Positions 16,499-38,574 of a stretch of 38,574 nt of DNA are shown piece by piece. The position numbers and the translations under genes were made by a program. The stretch's first letter is position 1. Each line of letters starts with the position of its first letter. The DNA comes from a virus, in the IMG/VR virus record IMGVR_UViG_3300043411_000541, positions 1-38,574 of that record. One strand, written 5' to 3'. The notes below the pieces were generated by a model. The model had not been told where the DNA came from. It did not search any database and saw nothing but the letters and a program-made list of their open reading frames with translations.

Positions 16499-17854
16499 TT
16501 ACAGGCTTATTTCATCACCATTATCTATATCAAATCCGTCTTCGTCAGGAATATAGACCTCACCCTTTGGAATAATAGGCTTGTTATATGCGTCCATATA
16601 TATTCTTTCACTCCAATCAGGTCTATTCATTGCTACATACCTAATTGGGTCTACTAAGTCGTCGTTTAGCTTATAAACCTCTGGCTTACTGTATTGGGAA
16701 TCGTCCCTTTTAGGGATAAACTTATAGCCCCCCATTTGTTCGGTAGTTTGTTTACATCTTCTTACAACCTTAAACTTTCCATTTCTTAAATATTGCGTAA
16801 TTCTGTTTATACCAGCCATTACATCATTTACACCTGGAGTTAGGGGCAGTGGTATCTCCATGATTGTAGGGTCTTGTAATTGGTCGTACATACTCATTCC
16901 ACTTGTTTGGTCTGTTCCTTTACTTGCAGGATCAATTATCCACTCTTGTATATCTTGTCGTCTTAATCCGTTTCGTTCAAGTATTCCATTAATAAGTTGC
17001 TCAATATCTTTAGTCGTTGTGTACTGTTTTTGTTCCTCGTCTATCACGTAAAGATTATGTTCCCTATCTTCTGCCATTAGTACGATTCCTGTTGGGTGTT
17101 GCCAACCCACATCAATTCCAATAAAGTATAAAGAATCTTCTGCCCTGTCGTAATTATCGATAAGCATTGATTCATTCCAGTCTGGATATATAAGTCCTGT
17201 AAAACTTTCAAAACTAGCTTCGTACTCTTGCCTAAACATTGCTTCGCTCATTGAAGCCCTTGCCATTTCAACTTCTTCTGGGTCAATATACGGATTGTTA
17301 ATCGTTTTAAAGTTCCATGTTTTATAATTAGGTTTATTCTCTACACTAGGAACAAAGAATGTTTTATATACCCAGTCTTTTCCCTGTGGAGTTGTTGTTA
17401 CCCATACCGAACCCTTGTAGTCCGTTAAAGAAGGTCTTAAAGTCTCCCATACCCTTTGACCTTGGTTATACATAGACGCTTCGTCTAGCCACGCCCAGTG
17501 ATATTTTCTACCTCGACCTATCCTGTCAGGGTCTGCGTATCTGAATACAATTTCAGAACCATTAATTAAAGTTAATCGCATTTCTGACTTATTCCATTCT
17601 CTTATACTTGAATCAGGTATCCAATCCATTACCATTTTCACGTTCACGTCGTTTAAATCTTGATACGTTGGAGCAACTATAATTCCACTGGTTGGCATAC
17701 CCAATTTCTTTGGCATTTGGTCGGCCCAGTACAAGCCCTCTATTGTCCCCGCAATTGACTTTCCAGCCCTACGACCAGCAATGATTGTCCTGTACCTTGC
17801 GGTGCTTTTATGAAACTCATTCTGGTATTTGTGTGGTTTATAACTTTTTTGTAT
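16499..17854 (-). CDS. terL: Terminase large subunit, no conventional start codon
   Basis: The packaging ATPase/nuclease. The Walker A A-G-R-R-A-G-K-S is read around 17755-17780, Walker B is W-A-W-L-D-E-A-S, and the nuclease domain has F-I-G-I-D-V-G-W, W-I-I-D-P-A-S and D-D-L-V-D-P. From 17854 to 16499 it is about 450 residues, normal for the family. The frame is open back to a stop at 17867-17869 and contains no ATG, GTG or TTG before the Walker A motif. The only near-start codon is ATA at 17852-17854, giving I-Q-K-S-Y-K-P-H-K-Y-Q. The first TTG (17734) would delete the ATPase P-loop. The start is therefore ATA, or the protein is made by a frameshift from the overlapping zinc-ribbon gene at an eight-A run, or one base is wrong in the sequence. 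Confidence 0.9.
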   Translation of the reverse strand: MQKSYKPHKYQNEFHKSTARYRTIIAGRRAGKSIAGTIEGLYWADQMPKKLGMPTSGIIVAPTYQDLNDVNVKMVMDWIPDSSIREWNKSEMRLTLINGSEIVFRYADPDRIGRGRKYHWAWLDEASMYNQGQRVWETLRPSLTDYKGSVWVTTTPQGKDWVYKTFFVPSVENKPNYKTWNFKTINNPYIDPEEVEMARASMSEAMFRQEYEASFESFTGLIYPDWNESMLIDNYDRAEDSLYFIGIDVGWQHPTGIVLMAEDREHNLYVIDEEQKQYTTTKDIEQLINGILERNGLRRQDIQEWIIDPASKGTDQTSGMSMYDQLQDPTIMEIPLPLTPGVNDVMAGINRITQYLRNGKFKVVRRCKQTTEQMGGYKFIPKRDDSQYSKPEVYKLNDDLVDPIRYVAMNRPDWSERIYMDAYNKPIIPKGEVYIPDEDGFDIDNGDEISL

Positions 17855-18149
17855 TTTTTTTAGCCTTTATATTATCTACTTCACTATGCAAACACGAATT
17901 GCATATTAAAAACGAACCCTCGTTAATTTCTATTTCAAACAGTTCAGTAAATTCCTTTCCCTGTCTACAGTTTATACATTGATTCAAAGCCACAACCTTC
18001 TCTAACGGTTCTTGAAGTAGTCCATACGCTGGACACTCTGGTAATGTGCAATAACTATACAACCCAAGCCACTTGGACTTCATTTGGTTTAAACAATAAT
18101 TACATGTTCTCACTGAACGTAATGTACTAAACTTATATATTATATTCAC
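17838..18149 (-). CDS. Zinc-ribbon protein overlapping terL
   Basis: A 103-residue protein with several metal-binding pairs: C-N-Y-C near residue 16, C-T-L-P-E-C near 34, C-I-N-C near 58 and C-N-S-C near 83. It ends in a lysine-rich tail (K-A-K-K-N-T-K-K-L). Some such small zinc proteins next to terminases resemble terminase small subunits or HNH relatives, but the H-N-H residues are not evident here. Its last 17 bases overlap the terminase frame in the +1 phase, beginning in a run of eight A residues. It starts at the stop of the exonuclease gene. Confidence 0.6.
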   Translation of the reverse strand: MNIIYKFSTLRSVRTCNYCLNQMKSKWLGLYSYCTLPECPAYGLLQEPLEKVVALNQCINCRQGKEFTELFEIEINEGSFLICNSCLHSEVDNIKAKKNTKKL

Positions 18150-18919
18150 TAGACTTGGTTCACATACTTCACATCTGAATTAAGAGTAACCCTACCCGAC
18201 ACCCAAGTACCACAATCCTTACACTGATACCTTTTCCTTTTGCCTACGTTGGAGAATGTATATCCACCCTTTCGGAAGTTCTCCCCGTTACACTTTGGGC
18301 AAGTGTCGGGCATATCATTTAATAGTGCCATGTTAGGATGTGACTTCATCCACGGTCTTAATCTTAGATAAAGCTTTTCTTCTAGTTCAACGTCTATCTT
18401 GTTATAATCCTTCATCATCTTCCACGCCTTCTTTTCACCCATTAATACCTTCCTCCACATAGCCCAACCTTCGTGTTCCATTTTATGACCAAACCCAAAC
18501 TGTCCACATAAATCGTCTAATTTATTTCTACTAAATCTTCCAATCCTTTTTGCTTCCTTTTTGGTGTCAATCTGTTTGTATGGTGCAGGCGGATTCATAC
18601 CATGTACTATCATTCTTGAGTTAGCAGTCTTTTGATCAAAACTATCTCCATTATGTGCCACCACTATATCCGCTTCTTCAAACAACTCATGTATCTTTTT
18701 TACCACCTGTTTATCGTTTAATACCCCAGGTTTATATCCTTTAAAATCGTCTTGACCAATCACCCTTACATTCTTGTCTCCTAACCACTTATACGCAAAG
18801 CATAGTATTGTAGGCTCTTGTATAATCTCAAGGGCGTTGCTTTCGTATGCACCCCAGTTGTAGCTTATCATTGGACTTGTTTCTATATCCCAAATCAGCG
18901 TTTTTGCTTCCCCCTCCAT
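18149..18919 (-). CDS. DnaQ-like 3'-5' exonuclease with C-terminal zinc ribbon
   Basis: A 256-residue RNase H-fold nuclease of the DEDDy type. Motif I is W-D-I-E-T (D11, E13), motif II is V-A-H-N-G-D-S-F-D (D92, D95) and motif III is Y-N-K-I-D-V (Y172, D176). A zinc ribbon with C207/C210 and C233/C236 is appended. It degrades single-stranded DNA or RNA ends using two metal ions. The zinc ribbon probably supplies nucleic-acid binding. It lies among packaging genes and not replication genes, so a role in DNA repair, recombination or host-nucleic-acid turnover is possible. The start has no Shine-Dalgarno. Confidence 0.82.
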   Translation of the reverse strand: MEGEAKTLIWDIETSPMISYNWGAYESNALEIIQEPTILCFAYKWLGDKNVRVIGQDDFKGYKPGVLNDKQVVKKIHELFEEADIVVAHNGDSFDQKTANSRMIVHGMNPPAPYKQIDTKKEAKRIGRFSRNKLDDLCGQFGFGHKMEHEGWAMWRKVLMGEKKAWKMMKDYNKIDVELEEKLYLRLRPWMKSHPNMALLNDMPDTCPKCNGENFRKGGYTFSNVGKRKRYQCKDCGTWVSGRVTLNSDVKYVNQV

Positions 18920-24156: not shown

Positions 24157-24358
24157 AGTCCTTATTAATTATCTGAAAGATTGATATATGTTCGACCTCA
24201 TTCTCATTGAAACCATCACAATCTCTTTTAAATCGTTCCATAGCTATTTCTAAAGCGGACTTATACGAATTTGCGTAAAACCTCAAAGATAATCTCCTAT
24301 TATCAAAAAATTCAGCTACCACCTCAAAAACCATTACCACTTTCTTACTCTTTCCCAT
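24152..24358 (-). CDS. Hypothetical early protein, MGKSK family
   Basis: A 68-residue protein starting MGKSKK, with an amphipathic beta start (V-V-M-V-F-E-V-V-A-E-F) and a helix (S-A-L-E-I-A-M-E-R-F-K-R). The first five residues and the overlapping upstream frame recur at 25566 and 29712 in front of unrelated bodies. Function unknown. It overlaps the upstream gene by 14 bases. Confidence 0.5.
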   Translation of the reverse strand: MGKSKKVVMVFEVVAEFFDNRRLSLRFYANSYKSALEIAMERFKRDCDGFNENEVEHISIFQIINKDF

Positions 24359-24719
24359 TATCTTTATACTTCAATTTAGATAACATTTCCTCTATAATTT
24401 CTCTTCTTACAAGTTCTGGATATATGTGCCTTCCACTAAGAATATTTGTACTATCGTTAATTCTTAACACCTCTTCAAGGGTACGCTTACGCTCTTCTAA
24501 CCTAATCTCATCAAGTATACTTCGGAGTTCAACTATACTGTAAATTATTGTAGGCTCGCCTATTCTTTCAACTATTGAAAAACAGTTTTCTACTTTCTTT
24601 TCTACTATTTCTAAAGAGGAAAAGCCCTCGCCTTTTATATGCTCGTATTTACAGACCGCAGTTCCACCAAACCCGCTTTTCGCATTTGATAATGAAGGCC
24701 ATTTTGTGTCTTTTCTCAT
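24345..24719 (-). CDS. Mosaic early protein with shared ERKRTLEEV tail (copy 1)
   Basis: A 124-residue protein. Its N-terminal half (M-R-K-D-T-K-W-P, then I-V-E-R-I-G-E-P-T) is unique. The C-terminal 58 residues (E-E-R-K-R-T-L-E-E-V-L-R through L-S-K-L-K-Y-K-D-N-G-K-E) are nearly identical to the ends of 29699-29986, and partly to 25707-26096. The tail is helical and charged, with H-I-Y-P-E-L-V-R-R-E. The function is unknown; a protein-interaction tail is one possibility. It starts in an ATGA overlap with the zinc protein at 24716. Confidence 0.6.
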   Translation of the reverse strand: MRKDTKWPSLSNAKSGFGGTAVCKYEHIKGEGFSSLEIVEKKVENCFSIVERIGEPTIIYSIVELRSILDEIRLEERKRTLEEVLRINDSTNILSGRHIYPELVRREIIEEMLSKLKYKDNGKE

Positions 24720-24958
24720 TTCTTTGCAAACTTTTCTAACTTAATTACGTACTCTTTTAGTTCTTCTAATTCCTGTTTTAGATTGATATTTTTCTTTACA
24801 ACATCTCTGTACGAGTTCTTCATTGCGATTAGATCCTTTTCTATTCTTTCTTTGCTTCTATCCACAACAGCCTTTTTACATTTAGTACAAATTAAAACCT
24901 GCTCTCCATTTAGTACACCACCTTTAATTATTTCAGAATAACAGCAAGTACTTTTCAT
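24716..24958 (-). CDS. Zinc-finger/coiled-coil protein, duplicate A
   Basis: An 80-residue protein. The N-terminal C-C-Y-S and the C-T-K-C at about 24-27 form a probable zinc knuckle. It is followed by a coiled coil (I-E-K-D-L-I-A-M-K-N, L-K-Q-E-L-E-E-L-K-E) to the end. It is almost identical to the 28404-28646 product (a handful of changes). It may be a small DNA-binding or dimerising regulator. It follows a zinc-ribbon gene by 3 bases. Confidence 0.65.
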   Translation of the reverse strand: MKSTCCYSEIIKGGVLNGEQVLICTKCKKAVVDRSKERIEKDLIAMKNSYRDVVKKNINLKQELEELKEYVIKLEKFAKK

Positions 24959-24961
24959 TTC

Positions 24962-25333
24962 TTACTCCTTTTGCTTGGTTAAATTAAGCAACTGTCTTAC
25001 TAAGTTAAACACTACATCGGGAACTAAATCCTCAACGGCACTTCCTTCAAAACAATTTGTTTCCTCATAAAGATACCTAGAAATTGCTTCGTGTAGGCTT
25101 TTGCCTTCTCCATAATAAAGTTGTCCAACCTGTATATTCTCCCCTACTAAAACACACCAGGTATCTCCATCTTTAAAAAGCGAAGTTCCTTTTCTAATCT
25201 CTAAAGTATCCGTATTAGTAAATTGAGGTCCTTGTAATACCTTACATTTGGGGCAATCGTAAAGGGCTTTAGTTCCACTTCCAATTGTATTTATAATCCT
25301 ACCCCCACACTTTTTACAAATATACTTCTTCAT
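24962..25333 (-). CDS. Zinc-ribbon early protein
   Basis: A 123-residue protein with an N-terminal zinc ribbon (C-K-K-C-G-G at 5-10, C-P-K-C at about 28-31) and a soluble body (D-T-W-C-V-L-V-G-E-N). The C-terminus ends L-V-R-Q-L-L-N-L-T-K-Q-K-E. No family is recognised beyond the ribbon. It starts within family I repeat copy 2, which fixes the start codon at 25333. Confidence 0.6.
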   Translation of the reverse strand: MKKYICKKCGGRIINTIGSGTKALYDCPKCKVLQGPQFTNTDTLEIRKGTSLFKDGDTWCVLVGENIQVGQLYYGEGKSLHEAISRYLYEETNCFEGSAVEDLVPDVVFNLVRQLLNLTKQKE

Positions 25334-28170: not shown

Positions 28171-28407
28171 CTAATCTACAGATTGCAATATCTTGCCCCG
28201 ACCTATAATATTATTTTTAATTGCATACACCCTTTGTGTAGAAATACCTAGTCTTTCAGCCATTTCCCTATACGTTAATCCTTGTTGTTTTAGTGAAAGT
28301 ACCTCTAGCTCTCTTTTAGTTAAAGCAACGTCAAGTCTTTTTGGTGCTACGTAGTACTTGCCAATATGTTTCTTTGTGTCTGGATATATTACTTTTAATC
28401 TTCTCAT
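28171..28407 (-). CDS. LuxR/GerE-type HTH transcription regulator
   Basis: A 78-residue protein. Residues 28-66 (L-T-K-R-E-L-E-V-L-S, then G-L-T-Y-R-E-M-A-E-R-L-G-I-S-T-Q-R-V-Y-A-I) are a clear LuxR/sigma-region-4-like helix-turn-helix, with a basic N-terminal extension and no receiver domain. It probably binds phage promoters. It is a candidate reader of the CCTATAG element, but that link is inference only. It starts in a 4-base overlap with the zinc protein gene. Confidence 0.8.
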   Translation of the reverse strand: MRRLKVIYPDTKKHIGKYYVAPKRLDVALTKRELEVLSLKQQGLTYREMAERLGISTQRVYAIKNNIIGRGKILQSVD

Positions 28408-28646
28408 TTCTTTGCAAACTTCTCTAACTTAATTACATACTCTTTTAATTGTTCCAACTCTTGTTTTAGTATTACGTTTTTCTTTACAACGTCCCTGTAC
28501 GAGTTCTTCATAGCGATTAGATCCTTTTCAACTCTTTCTTTGCTTCTATCAACAACAGCCTTTTTACATTTAGTACAGATTAGTACCTGTTCTCCGTTTA
28601 GTACACCACCTTTAATTATTTCAGAATAACAACAACTGCTTTTCAT
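28404..28646 (-). CDS. Zinc-finger/coiled-coil protein, duplicate B
   Basis: An 80-residue near-identical copy of the 24716-24958 product. It keeps the cysteine pairs and the coiled coil; the visible changes are conservative (for example I to V, N to V). It is paired here with the LuxR-type regulator, whereas the other copy is paired with the mosaic tail protein. Confidence 0.65.
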   Translation of the reverse strand: MKSSCCYSEIIKGGVLNGEQVLICTKCKKAVVDRSKERVEKDLIAMKNSYRDVVKKNVILKQELEQLKEYVIKLEKFAKK

Positions 28647-28666
28647 CTCTTATTCCTTTTGCTTGG

Positions 28667-29197
28667 TTAAATTAAAGTTCTCTTATACATAGCATAATCG
28701 AATACCATCTGTTTAATTTCTTCTGTAGACAGTTGCACTTCTGCAATGGCTGTTACATATTGAGAGGCTAGTAAATGCTTATTCCTACAACTAATAGCTC
28801 TCAAAATTTCTTTCTTCCAACATAAGTTCAACAAAGCTCTTTTATCTAGGTATTTATTCCTTTGAGGCTCTCTAATAACGGAAACTTTATTTTCCTCTAT
28901 GAGAATAATACCCCATCTTTCGGTTACAATATTTGCAACCTTTTCCACATACTTCTTTGTAGTAACTATATAGCAAAAATCACAAACCTTATCATAAGAC
29001 CAAGACTGTCTTTCAAGCCTGTTGGTAGTGTCTTTATCGGATTTAATCTCAAATCCATATATAGTGTTTGTATCCTTATTAAAGGCAGTCAAATCAAGTC
29101 TAGTTGTTCCTGTTGGCATTTCTTCCCTTATATTTGTAGGATTAAAAACCTCTTTTATCCATTCAATTAGTATTTTCCTAATGTCCTTATCCTTCAT
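28667..29197 (-). CDS. PD-(D/E)XK nuclease-like protein
   Basis: A 176-residue protein. Residues 24-57 carry the core of PD-(D/E)XK folds: T-T-R-L-D-L-T-A-F (D34) then G-F-E-I-K-S-D (E-x-K at about 50-52) and R-Q-S-W-S-Y-D-K-V. This matches small standalone nuclease families such as sce7726/MmcB-like proteins. It may cut host or phage DNA in repair, recombination or competition with other phages. The C-terminal half is basic and helical. It starts in family I repeat copy 3. Confidence 0.75.
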   Translation of the reverse strand: MKDKDIRKILIEWIKEVFNPTNIREEMPTGTTRLDLTAFNKDTNTIYGFEIKSDKDTTNRLERQSWSYDKVCDFCYIVTTKKYVEKVANIVTERWGIILIEENKVSVIREPQRNKYLDKRALLNLCWKKEILRAISCRNKHLLASQYVTAIAEVQLSTEEIKQMVFDYAMYKRTLI

Positions 29198-29490: not shown

Positions 29491-29712
29491 TTAAATTAAA
29501 TCTAAACCTCTTTCAATATCGTTAAACTTCTTCAACCAACCTTTACCCACTAACTGCTCCACATAATACTGTGCAGTACTCAACTTTTTATTCCCAATAA
29601 AGACAGCAATTTCCCTCAATGTCGGTGCATAGTGTCTTTCAAAAATATAACCCTCTATATATTCAAATGCCCTTCTTTGCTTCATAGTTAAAGGTTTCTT
29701 ACTCTTTCCCAT
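29491..29712 (-). CDS. LexA-type DNA-binding domain without protease
   Basis: A 73-residue protein that begins MGKSKK and continues as the LexA winged helix: L-T-M-K-Q-R-R-A-F-E-Y-I (residues 8-19), A-P-T-L-R-E-I-A-V-F-I-G (about 31-42), S-T-A-Q-Y-Y-V-E-Q-L-V-G-K-G-W-L and R-G-L-D-L-I at the end. The S24 autoprotease half of LexA is missing, so it cannot be cleaved like normal LexA. It may be an antirepressor-like competitor or a phage regulator of SOS-type sites. It is one of three genes with the shared MGKSK start cassette. Confidence 0.8.
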   Translation of the reverse strand: MGKSKKPLTMKQRRAFEYIEGYIFERHYAPTLREIAVFIGNKKLSTAQYYVEQLVGKGWLKKFNDIERGLDLI

Positions 29713-29986
29713 TATCTTTATACTTCAATTTAGATAACATATCCTCTATAATTTCCCTTCTTACAAGTTCTGGATATATGTGATTTCCACTAAGAATATT
29801 TGTACTATCATTAACTCTTAACACCTCTTCAAGGGTACGCTTACGCTCTAAAAGTTTGATTTCATTAAATAATTCTATTATCTTTTGATGAATAGGGTAA
29901 ACTCCCCTGTCTTTATTAACGGCATCTCTATAATCATCAAGCAATTTGTCCAACTGTTCTATTTCTTTGTTAGTATCTCTTGACAT
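29699..29986 (-). CDS. Mosaic early protein with shared ERKRTLEEV tail (copy 3)
   Basis: A 95-residue protein. It begins MSRDTNKEIE as in copy 2, has its own middle (L-D-K-L-L-D-D-Y-R-D-A-V), and ends in the E-R-K-R-T-L-E-E-V-L-R through K-Y-K-D-N-G-K-E tail, almost identical to copy 1 (24345-24719). It therefore combines the head of one paralogue with the tail of the other. It overlaps the LexA-like gene by 14 bases. Confidence 0.65.
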   Translation of the reverse strand: MSRDTNKEIEQLDKLLDDYRDAVNKDRGVYPIHQKIIELFNEIKLLERKRTLEEVLRVNDSTNILSGNHIYPELVRREIIEDMLSKLKYKDNGKE

Positions 29987-37695: not shown

Positions 37696-38474
37696 TATCT
37701 TTTAAATATATTTTTTAATAAATTTGAGTAAAAGTTCACCCCAGTTTTTACATTTTGTATTGGATTAAACCTAATACCGCTTTGTGGTACTCCACTCTCT
37801 ACCATAGCTTTACCAACTGTATTGGTTAAATACTTATCTAGTAGGTTTCCCGTAACCCCGCCTTGTCCTGCCTCAAACCATTTAGGATTGACAAATCCAC
37901 TTTGTGCTGACTGTTGAGCTGTTTGCTGACTATTTGTAGCCGTTTTGTTCCTTGGGTCGTTTGGGTACTTGTCGAGTATATCTGGTATACCATCTCCATC
38001 TGAATCTCTCAATCCGCCACCCGCACCACCGCCACTTGATCTTCTTGCGTTCTCTTGAGCCTGTGCGTCCTGATACATTCTCCAAAGGTTTTCCGCGTTT
38101 GTCTGTTGTTTTTGTGCGTCTGTTTGGTATGCACTTGTTGCTTTTCCTAGTATATCTTGAAATTGTTGTCCTCTTGCGTTTAGTAAATCTGTAACACTTC
38201 CAATTTGTCCTCTTACTCCCGCTTGTCTACCTGATATTAGGGCTTCTTGTGCTAACGGGTTTCTTATTGCTGATTGATAGTATTCGTTTCTTAATTGTCC
38301 AGGTAATGCCTGTGCCTCGGCCTGTAGGTTATTCTGTTGGTCTATTAAATCTTTATTGTAGTTTGTCTTTTCGTTATACGCCTTTTCTAAATCACCCGCA
38401 AATTTGTTCACGTCATAACTTTGTGATTTCTGAAACGCTTTTTGATATTGTTTGAGGTAGTCTGAACTTGCCAT
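37695..38474 (-). CDS. Internal virion protein with calcium-loop motif
   Basis: A 259-residue, Q/N/A/G-rich protein. Residues 1-130 are helical and Q-rich. At about 155-170 a glycine linker is followed by D-S-D-G-D-G-I-P-D-I-L-D, a thrombospondin-type-3-like calcium loop that is rare in phage internal proteins. The C-terminus is hydrophobic and basic (F-Y-S-N-L-L-K-N-I-F-K-R). It belongs to the ejection set with the genes on either side. The start of the gene lies in the terminal repeat, so it is truncated at the left edge of the window. Confidence 0.6.
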   Translation of the reverse strand: MASSDYLKQYQKAFQKSQSYDVNKFAGDLEKAYNEKTNYNKDLIDQQNNLQAEAQALPGQLRNEYYQSAIRNPLAQEALISGRQAGVRGQIGSVTDLLNARGQQFQDILGKATSAYQTDAQKQQTNAENLWRMYQDAQAQENARRSSGGGAGGGLRDSDGDGIPDILDKYPNDPRNKTATNSQQTAQQSAQSGFVNPKWFEAGQGGVTGNLLDKYLTNTVGKAMVESGVPQSGIRFNPIQNVKTGVNFYSNLLKNIFKR

Positions 38475-38574
38475 AATTATGCTCCGTAATATTTTTTATA
38501 AAAGTCTGGAGATTGTTTTTTCTGGTAATCTCTTAGTGCTTGTAAATAACTAAATCCACCAGCCCCCTGTGTTC
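38432..38574. repeat. Terminal redundancy, right copy
   Basis: Right-hand copy of the 143-base overlap described at 1-143. It carries the start of the 37695-38474 gene and the 3' end of the 46-600 gene, so the gene order is continuous across the junction. Confidence 0.93.

Follow-up and report, generated by a model that had tools for sequence, protein, structure and literature searches.

On the minus strand of the window, i.e., the whole 38,574-nt stretch of DNA that was analysed, lies a gene for the large terminase subunit (terL), whose product gives the single TerL match in the whole record. The protein matches the Pfam families Terminase_6N (1.4e-13), Terminase_3, and Terminase_6C (1.8e-6), all above the cut-off, as well as PHROG 2, terminase large subunit (9e-46), and its profile matches solved terminase structures, e.g., 4zni and 5oea. 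The ATPase domain is represented by both the Walker A region and the conserved N-terminal motif, and the C-terminal RNase H-like nuclease domain by the Terminase_6C match. The TerLs of public phages turned out to be just 24-29% identical among the matches listed. A structure model built from an 11-sequence alignment has a pTM of 0.47 and a mean pLDDT of 31-35 at residues 1-30, and with such low N-terminal confidence it is uninformative on the start. The features of the locus are collected in Table 1.

Table 1. Features of the terL locus in the window
Feature	Position	Strand	Remarks
terL, large terminase	16499-17854	minus	451 codons plus stop, counted from ATA; Pfam, PHROG 2
Walker A region, AGRRAGKS	17756-17779	minus	GCT GGT CGT AGG GCT GGA AAG TCA
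YKPHKYQ, N-terminal motif conserved in this TerL family	17822-17842	minus	aligned to YKPHHVQ of the TerL ATPase 4zni
A6 run	17845-17850	minus	coding (CAA AAA AGT); conserved in L001, plain coding there
ATA, putative terL start codon	17852-17854	minus	ATG at the same codon in L001
A8 run	17854-17861	minus	in the A-rich, accessible leader; not conserved in L001
AAAGG, weak Shine-Dalgarno-like site	17864-17868	minus	9 nt before ATA; -3.2 kcal/mol
TAA closing the terL frame upstream	17867-17869	minus	in frame
Upstream Cys-rich gene, 103 aa	17838-18149	minus	GTG start, CxxC-type cysteines; not part of TerL
DNA polymerase exonuclease-like gene	18149-18919	minus	PHROG 403, 7.5e-78; same gene string as terL

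The start region and its surroundings

The minus-strand frame of terL runs TAA (17869-17867) AGG CTA AAA AAA ATA CAA AAA AGT TAT AAA CCA CAC AAA TAC CAG. No ATG, GTG, or TTG occurs in this frame before AGRRAGKS (17779-17756). The first such codon is a TTG at 17734, past Walker A, which bears out the initial observation of the sequence-only reading. If the wider set of table-11 starts is admitted, ATA (17854-17852) alone precedes YKPHKYQ, and ATC and ATT are found only inside the Walker A strand.

The Cys-rich gene upstream was described in the same reading as a zinc-ribbon gene that enters the region with a run of eight A followed by one of six, where a +1 change of frame would fuse it to terL. 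The geometry is as described: the gene passes through A8 and A6 and stops at 17840-17838, 17 nt inside terL, and it is one frame off terL, so that a +1 shift would join the two. As to the name, the cysteine pattern is present and is its whole basis; the protein gave no Pfam match above the cut-off and no PHROG match. Apart from A8, the coding strand of the window has no run of eight or more A's. Such runs are expected 7.8 times in dinucleotide-based random sequences and 3.0 times in synonymous gene shuffles, and the run was rejected as an unusual signal, since its number is not above chance. L001, the closest relative found, has AAATAAAA where the window has A8, i.e., the run is not conserved. 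The exonuclease-like gene that follows further upstream is present in the same order near terL in L016-L018.

The ends of the record overlap (1-143 vs. 38432-38574, 143 nt) with three mismatches, all of which are synonymous third-position transitions within one gene. The record appears to be a complete genome of ~38.43 kb, circular or circularly permuted, and the end differences were read as a sign that the sample of origin contains close strains or strain variants. An inexact end repeat of this kind would be missed by an exact end-repeat test. Long structural genes across the window are open, with no other frameshift in long genes and no further sign of sequence error; together with the fact that the end differences are synonymous, this argues for good base quality. 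Two pairs of direct repeats, each ~90% identical, are located in a region of small genes (24341-24517 with 29695-29871, and 24713-24987 with 28401-28675) and are likely recent duplications of small genes, and the repeat families D4-D7 are segments common to several further genes of the window. A search of genome_contigs returned no relatives, and a search of viral_contigs, a set that may leave out near-identical records, returned no near-identical second copy of the site.

Where related terminases begin

The TerL of L001 (IMGVR_UViG_3300049855_000181) is 80% identical to that of the window. Its start region reads AAA GGC TAA ATA AAA ATG CAA AAA AGT TAT AAA CCA CAC AA, and its ATG sits exactly at the window ATA, followed by 23 identical nucleotides. 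The start of terL in L001 is fixed at this ATG because an in-frame TAA lies two codons upstream. The two genes thus share the same N-terminus and an upstream AAAGGCT, but differ in the start codon itself and in the directly upstream gene, which in L001 is a tRNA-Thr gene in place of the Cys-rich gene. This tRNA-Thr (TGT; L001:18-92) ends directly before terL, and AAAGGCT at its 3' end doubles as part of the terL leader; the window retains AAAGGCT (17862-17868) without the tRNA, perhaps as a remnant. The comparison of the two terL genes gave a dN of 0.13 and a dS of 1.84, the latter being near saturation; purifying selection on TerL is strong. The fraction of differing synonymous sites is 0.20 in the first 20 codons vs. 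0.69 overall, and this conservation fits a true initiation region.

Further relatives are 44-51% identical in TerL, and in all readable ones a standard start codon lies 2-5 residues ahead of the conserved YKPHKYQ: ATG in L016, L050, L120, L075, L133, L071, L175, L177, and L179, GTG in L072, and TTG in L163 and L137. Several of these loci come from one virus found more than once, or from near-identical viruses, so that the set corresponds to about ten lineages. L183-L185 were left out of the start comparison because their N-terminus is made unreadable by an intein-like insertion, ending in DFIVTHN, that breaks TerL in Walker A between GK and S. The standard starts differ among the relatives, which suggests that the start codon drifts in this TerL family. 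None of the relatives has ATA at the terL start position. The window carries ATA where its relatives carry a standard start, with no alternative start possible. Judged from these alignments, the ATA position is the ordinary terL start, matching the ATG of relatives.

L050 and L133, whose TerLs are ~50% identical to that of the window, are instructive as to the overlap. Their TerL starts at the same place, with ATG, and their upstream gene shows the same 17-nt overlap with terL, in the relative frame seen in the window, because the codons TAT AA(A/G) for the conserved YK contain a TAA when read in that frame. On the sequences compared, it is the conserved motif that gives rise to the overlap geometry taken as a hint of a frameshift. 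Several relatives have an upstream gene that overlaps terL or directly adjoins it, but as a separate gene. In L050, L133, L120, L075, and L071 the upstream gene, overlapping or adjacent, encodes a small-terminase-like C-terminus (VDMTSQGEKITAGIFVD); in the window, this place is taken by the Cys-rich gene. The upstream genes of L050 and L133 were searched against PHROG with no match.

Explanations of the ATA codon

We consider it quite probable that this is an ordinary phage terL in which the start codon ATG has changed to ATA, and that AUA is used at reduced efficiency. Initiation at AUA (17854-17852), presumably by fMet-tRNA, would then yield the 451-residue TerL in lowered amounts. Several lines of evidence support this explanation: the ATG of L001 at the same codon, the purifying selection on TerL, the accessible leader, and an apparently complete genome with one TerL match. 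It is counted against it that ATA is known from one assembled record and that the relatives do not have it there, and also that the Shine-Dalgarno-like site is weak compared with the extended motifs at the AUA starts of Staphylococcus aureus. The sequence-only reading had offered an ATA start, a fusion of the Cys-rich protein with the terminase by frameshift or slippage, and an indel as three options, and only the ATA start has gained support from the comparison with relatives.

The leader of ATA is the most accessible among 48 starts of the window and ranks in the top 2% when set against random positions, and this unusually unstructured, A-rich leader may aid initiation at AUA. The AAAGG site perhaps contributes as well, although its pairing energy is no better than that at half of random positions. 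Shine-Dalgarno pairing at the gene starts of the window shows no enrichment over random positions, and the starts are A-rich, with A at -6 in 75% of them. Start regions that do not rely on Shine-Dalgarno pairing are known in hosts such as Bacteroidota, which the starts of the window resemble in this respect. Ribosomes finishing the overlapping Cys-rich gene 14 nt further on would probably aid the AUA start by translational coupling; in E. coli, ribosomes are known to re-initiate at overlapping genes (PMC2268962). A low yield of TerL may be tolerable, since each particle requires few copies of the protein. A further proposal, that the AUA start within the overlap keeps TerL low and is read mainly by ribosomes just off the Cys-rich gene, linking the supply of the packaging motor to translation of the latter, appears doubtful to us.

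The codon could also be an ATG in the true sequence, with the A in place of G arising from an error in base calling or assembly, or from a minor, non-functional variant that entered the consensus. We regard this as unlikely, a weight that is a matter of judgement and not a computed figure. A single substitution separates the window ATA from the L001 ATG, the starts of all relatives are standard, and the contig mixes strains, as seen from the three differences between its overlapping ends. However, these differences, being synonymous third-position transitions, look like true strain variation and not like random error, and the long structural genes are open with no other sign of error in the window. 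Should there be a sequence error at all, a G-to-A change at the start codon is more likely than an error in run length. Homopolymers are common sites of indel errors, and a misassembled run might hide an ordinary fused Cys-rich/terminase gene, yet no such fusion exists in any relative read, all readable TerLs begin at this place, and the long genes of the window contain no other frameshift; we find this extremely improbable.

A working terminase made by fusion of the Cys-rich protein to TerL, through +1 ribosomal frameshifting or transcription slippage at A8/A6, is suggested by frames one base apart, by the location of the only A8 of the window inside the overlap, and by the lack of a standard start in TerL itself. 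Nevertheless, fused genes were sought among the relatives read and none was found, nor is a shift site conserved. L001 has no upstream partner gene at all and has an in-frame stop before its ATG, and L050 and L133 combine an ATG start with this very overlap and frame. The A8 run is not conserved, and runs of this kind are expected by chance. Neither a homopolymer of at least nine bases nor a known +1 shift site is present, A8 and A6 being the only runs, whereas efficient bacterial transcription slippage is documented for runs of nine (PMC5009743). The heptamer A AAA AAG is a -1 site and was rejected as a candidate: it is in the wrong frame, and a shift there would run into a stop at 17742-17740 instead of entering terL. 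We hold such a fusion to be very improbable; although suggested by the raw sequence, it is not needed and is rejected on the comparison of sequences, which indicates that terL is a separate gene.

Significance and comparison with known AUA starts

The proposed AUA start of terL is a rare but already known kind of start codon in a new instance, in an otherwise ordinary terminase gene. If real, it would be a clear phage example of AUA initiating an essential gene whose relative uses AUG at that very codon, so that both the price of a non-canonical start and the ways of compensating for it could be tested. The case also bears on terminase-based phage surveys, since gene finders limited to ATG, GTG, and TTG would shorten TerL to a form without Walker A. 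Among the papers searched, none joined an ATA start codon with a phage genome.

Natural AUA starts have been reported in S. aureus for infC, ccpN, and citZ on the basis of ribosome profiling and reporters, and they accompany extended Shine-Dalgarno motifs (PMC13009471). AUA reporters of ccpN and citZ showed ~10% of the AUG activity, with up to 30% for ccpN, and the AUA start of citZ is confined to one lineage, NCTC 8325 (PMC13009471). The terL studied here would be similar to these bacterial genes in its natural use of AUA as a start, and the restriction to one lineage is shared with citZ. It differs from them in being a phage gene for which the evidence comes from sequence, and in having a weak Shine-Dalgarno-like site and an open, A-rich leader. 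A strong Shine-Dalgarno motif is an aid in the S. aureus cases and is not taken here as a requirement for initiation at AUA.
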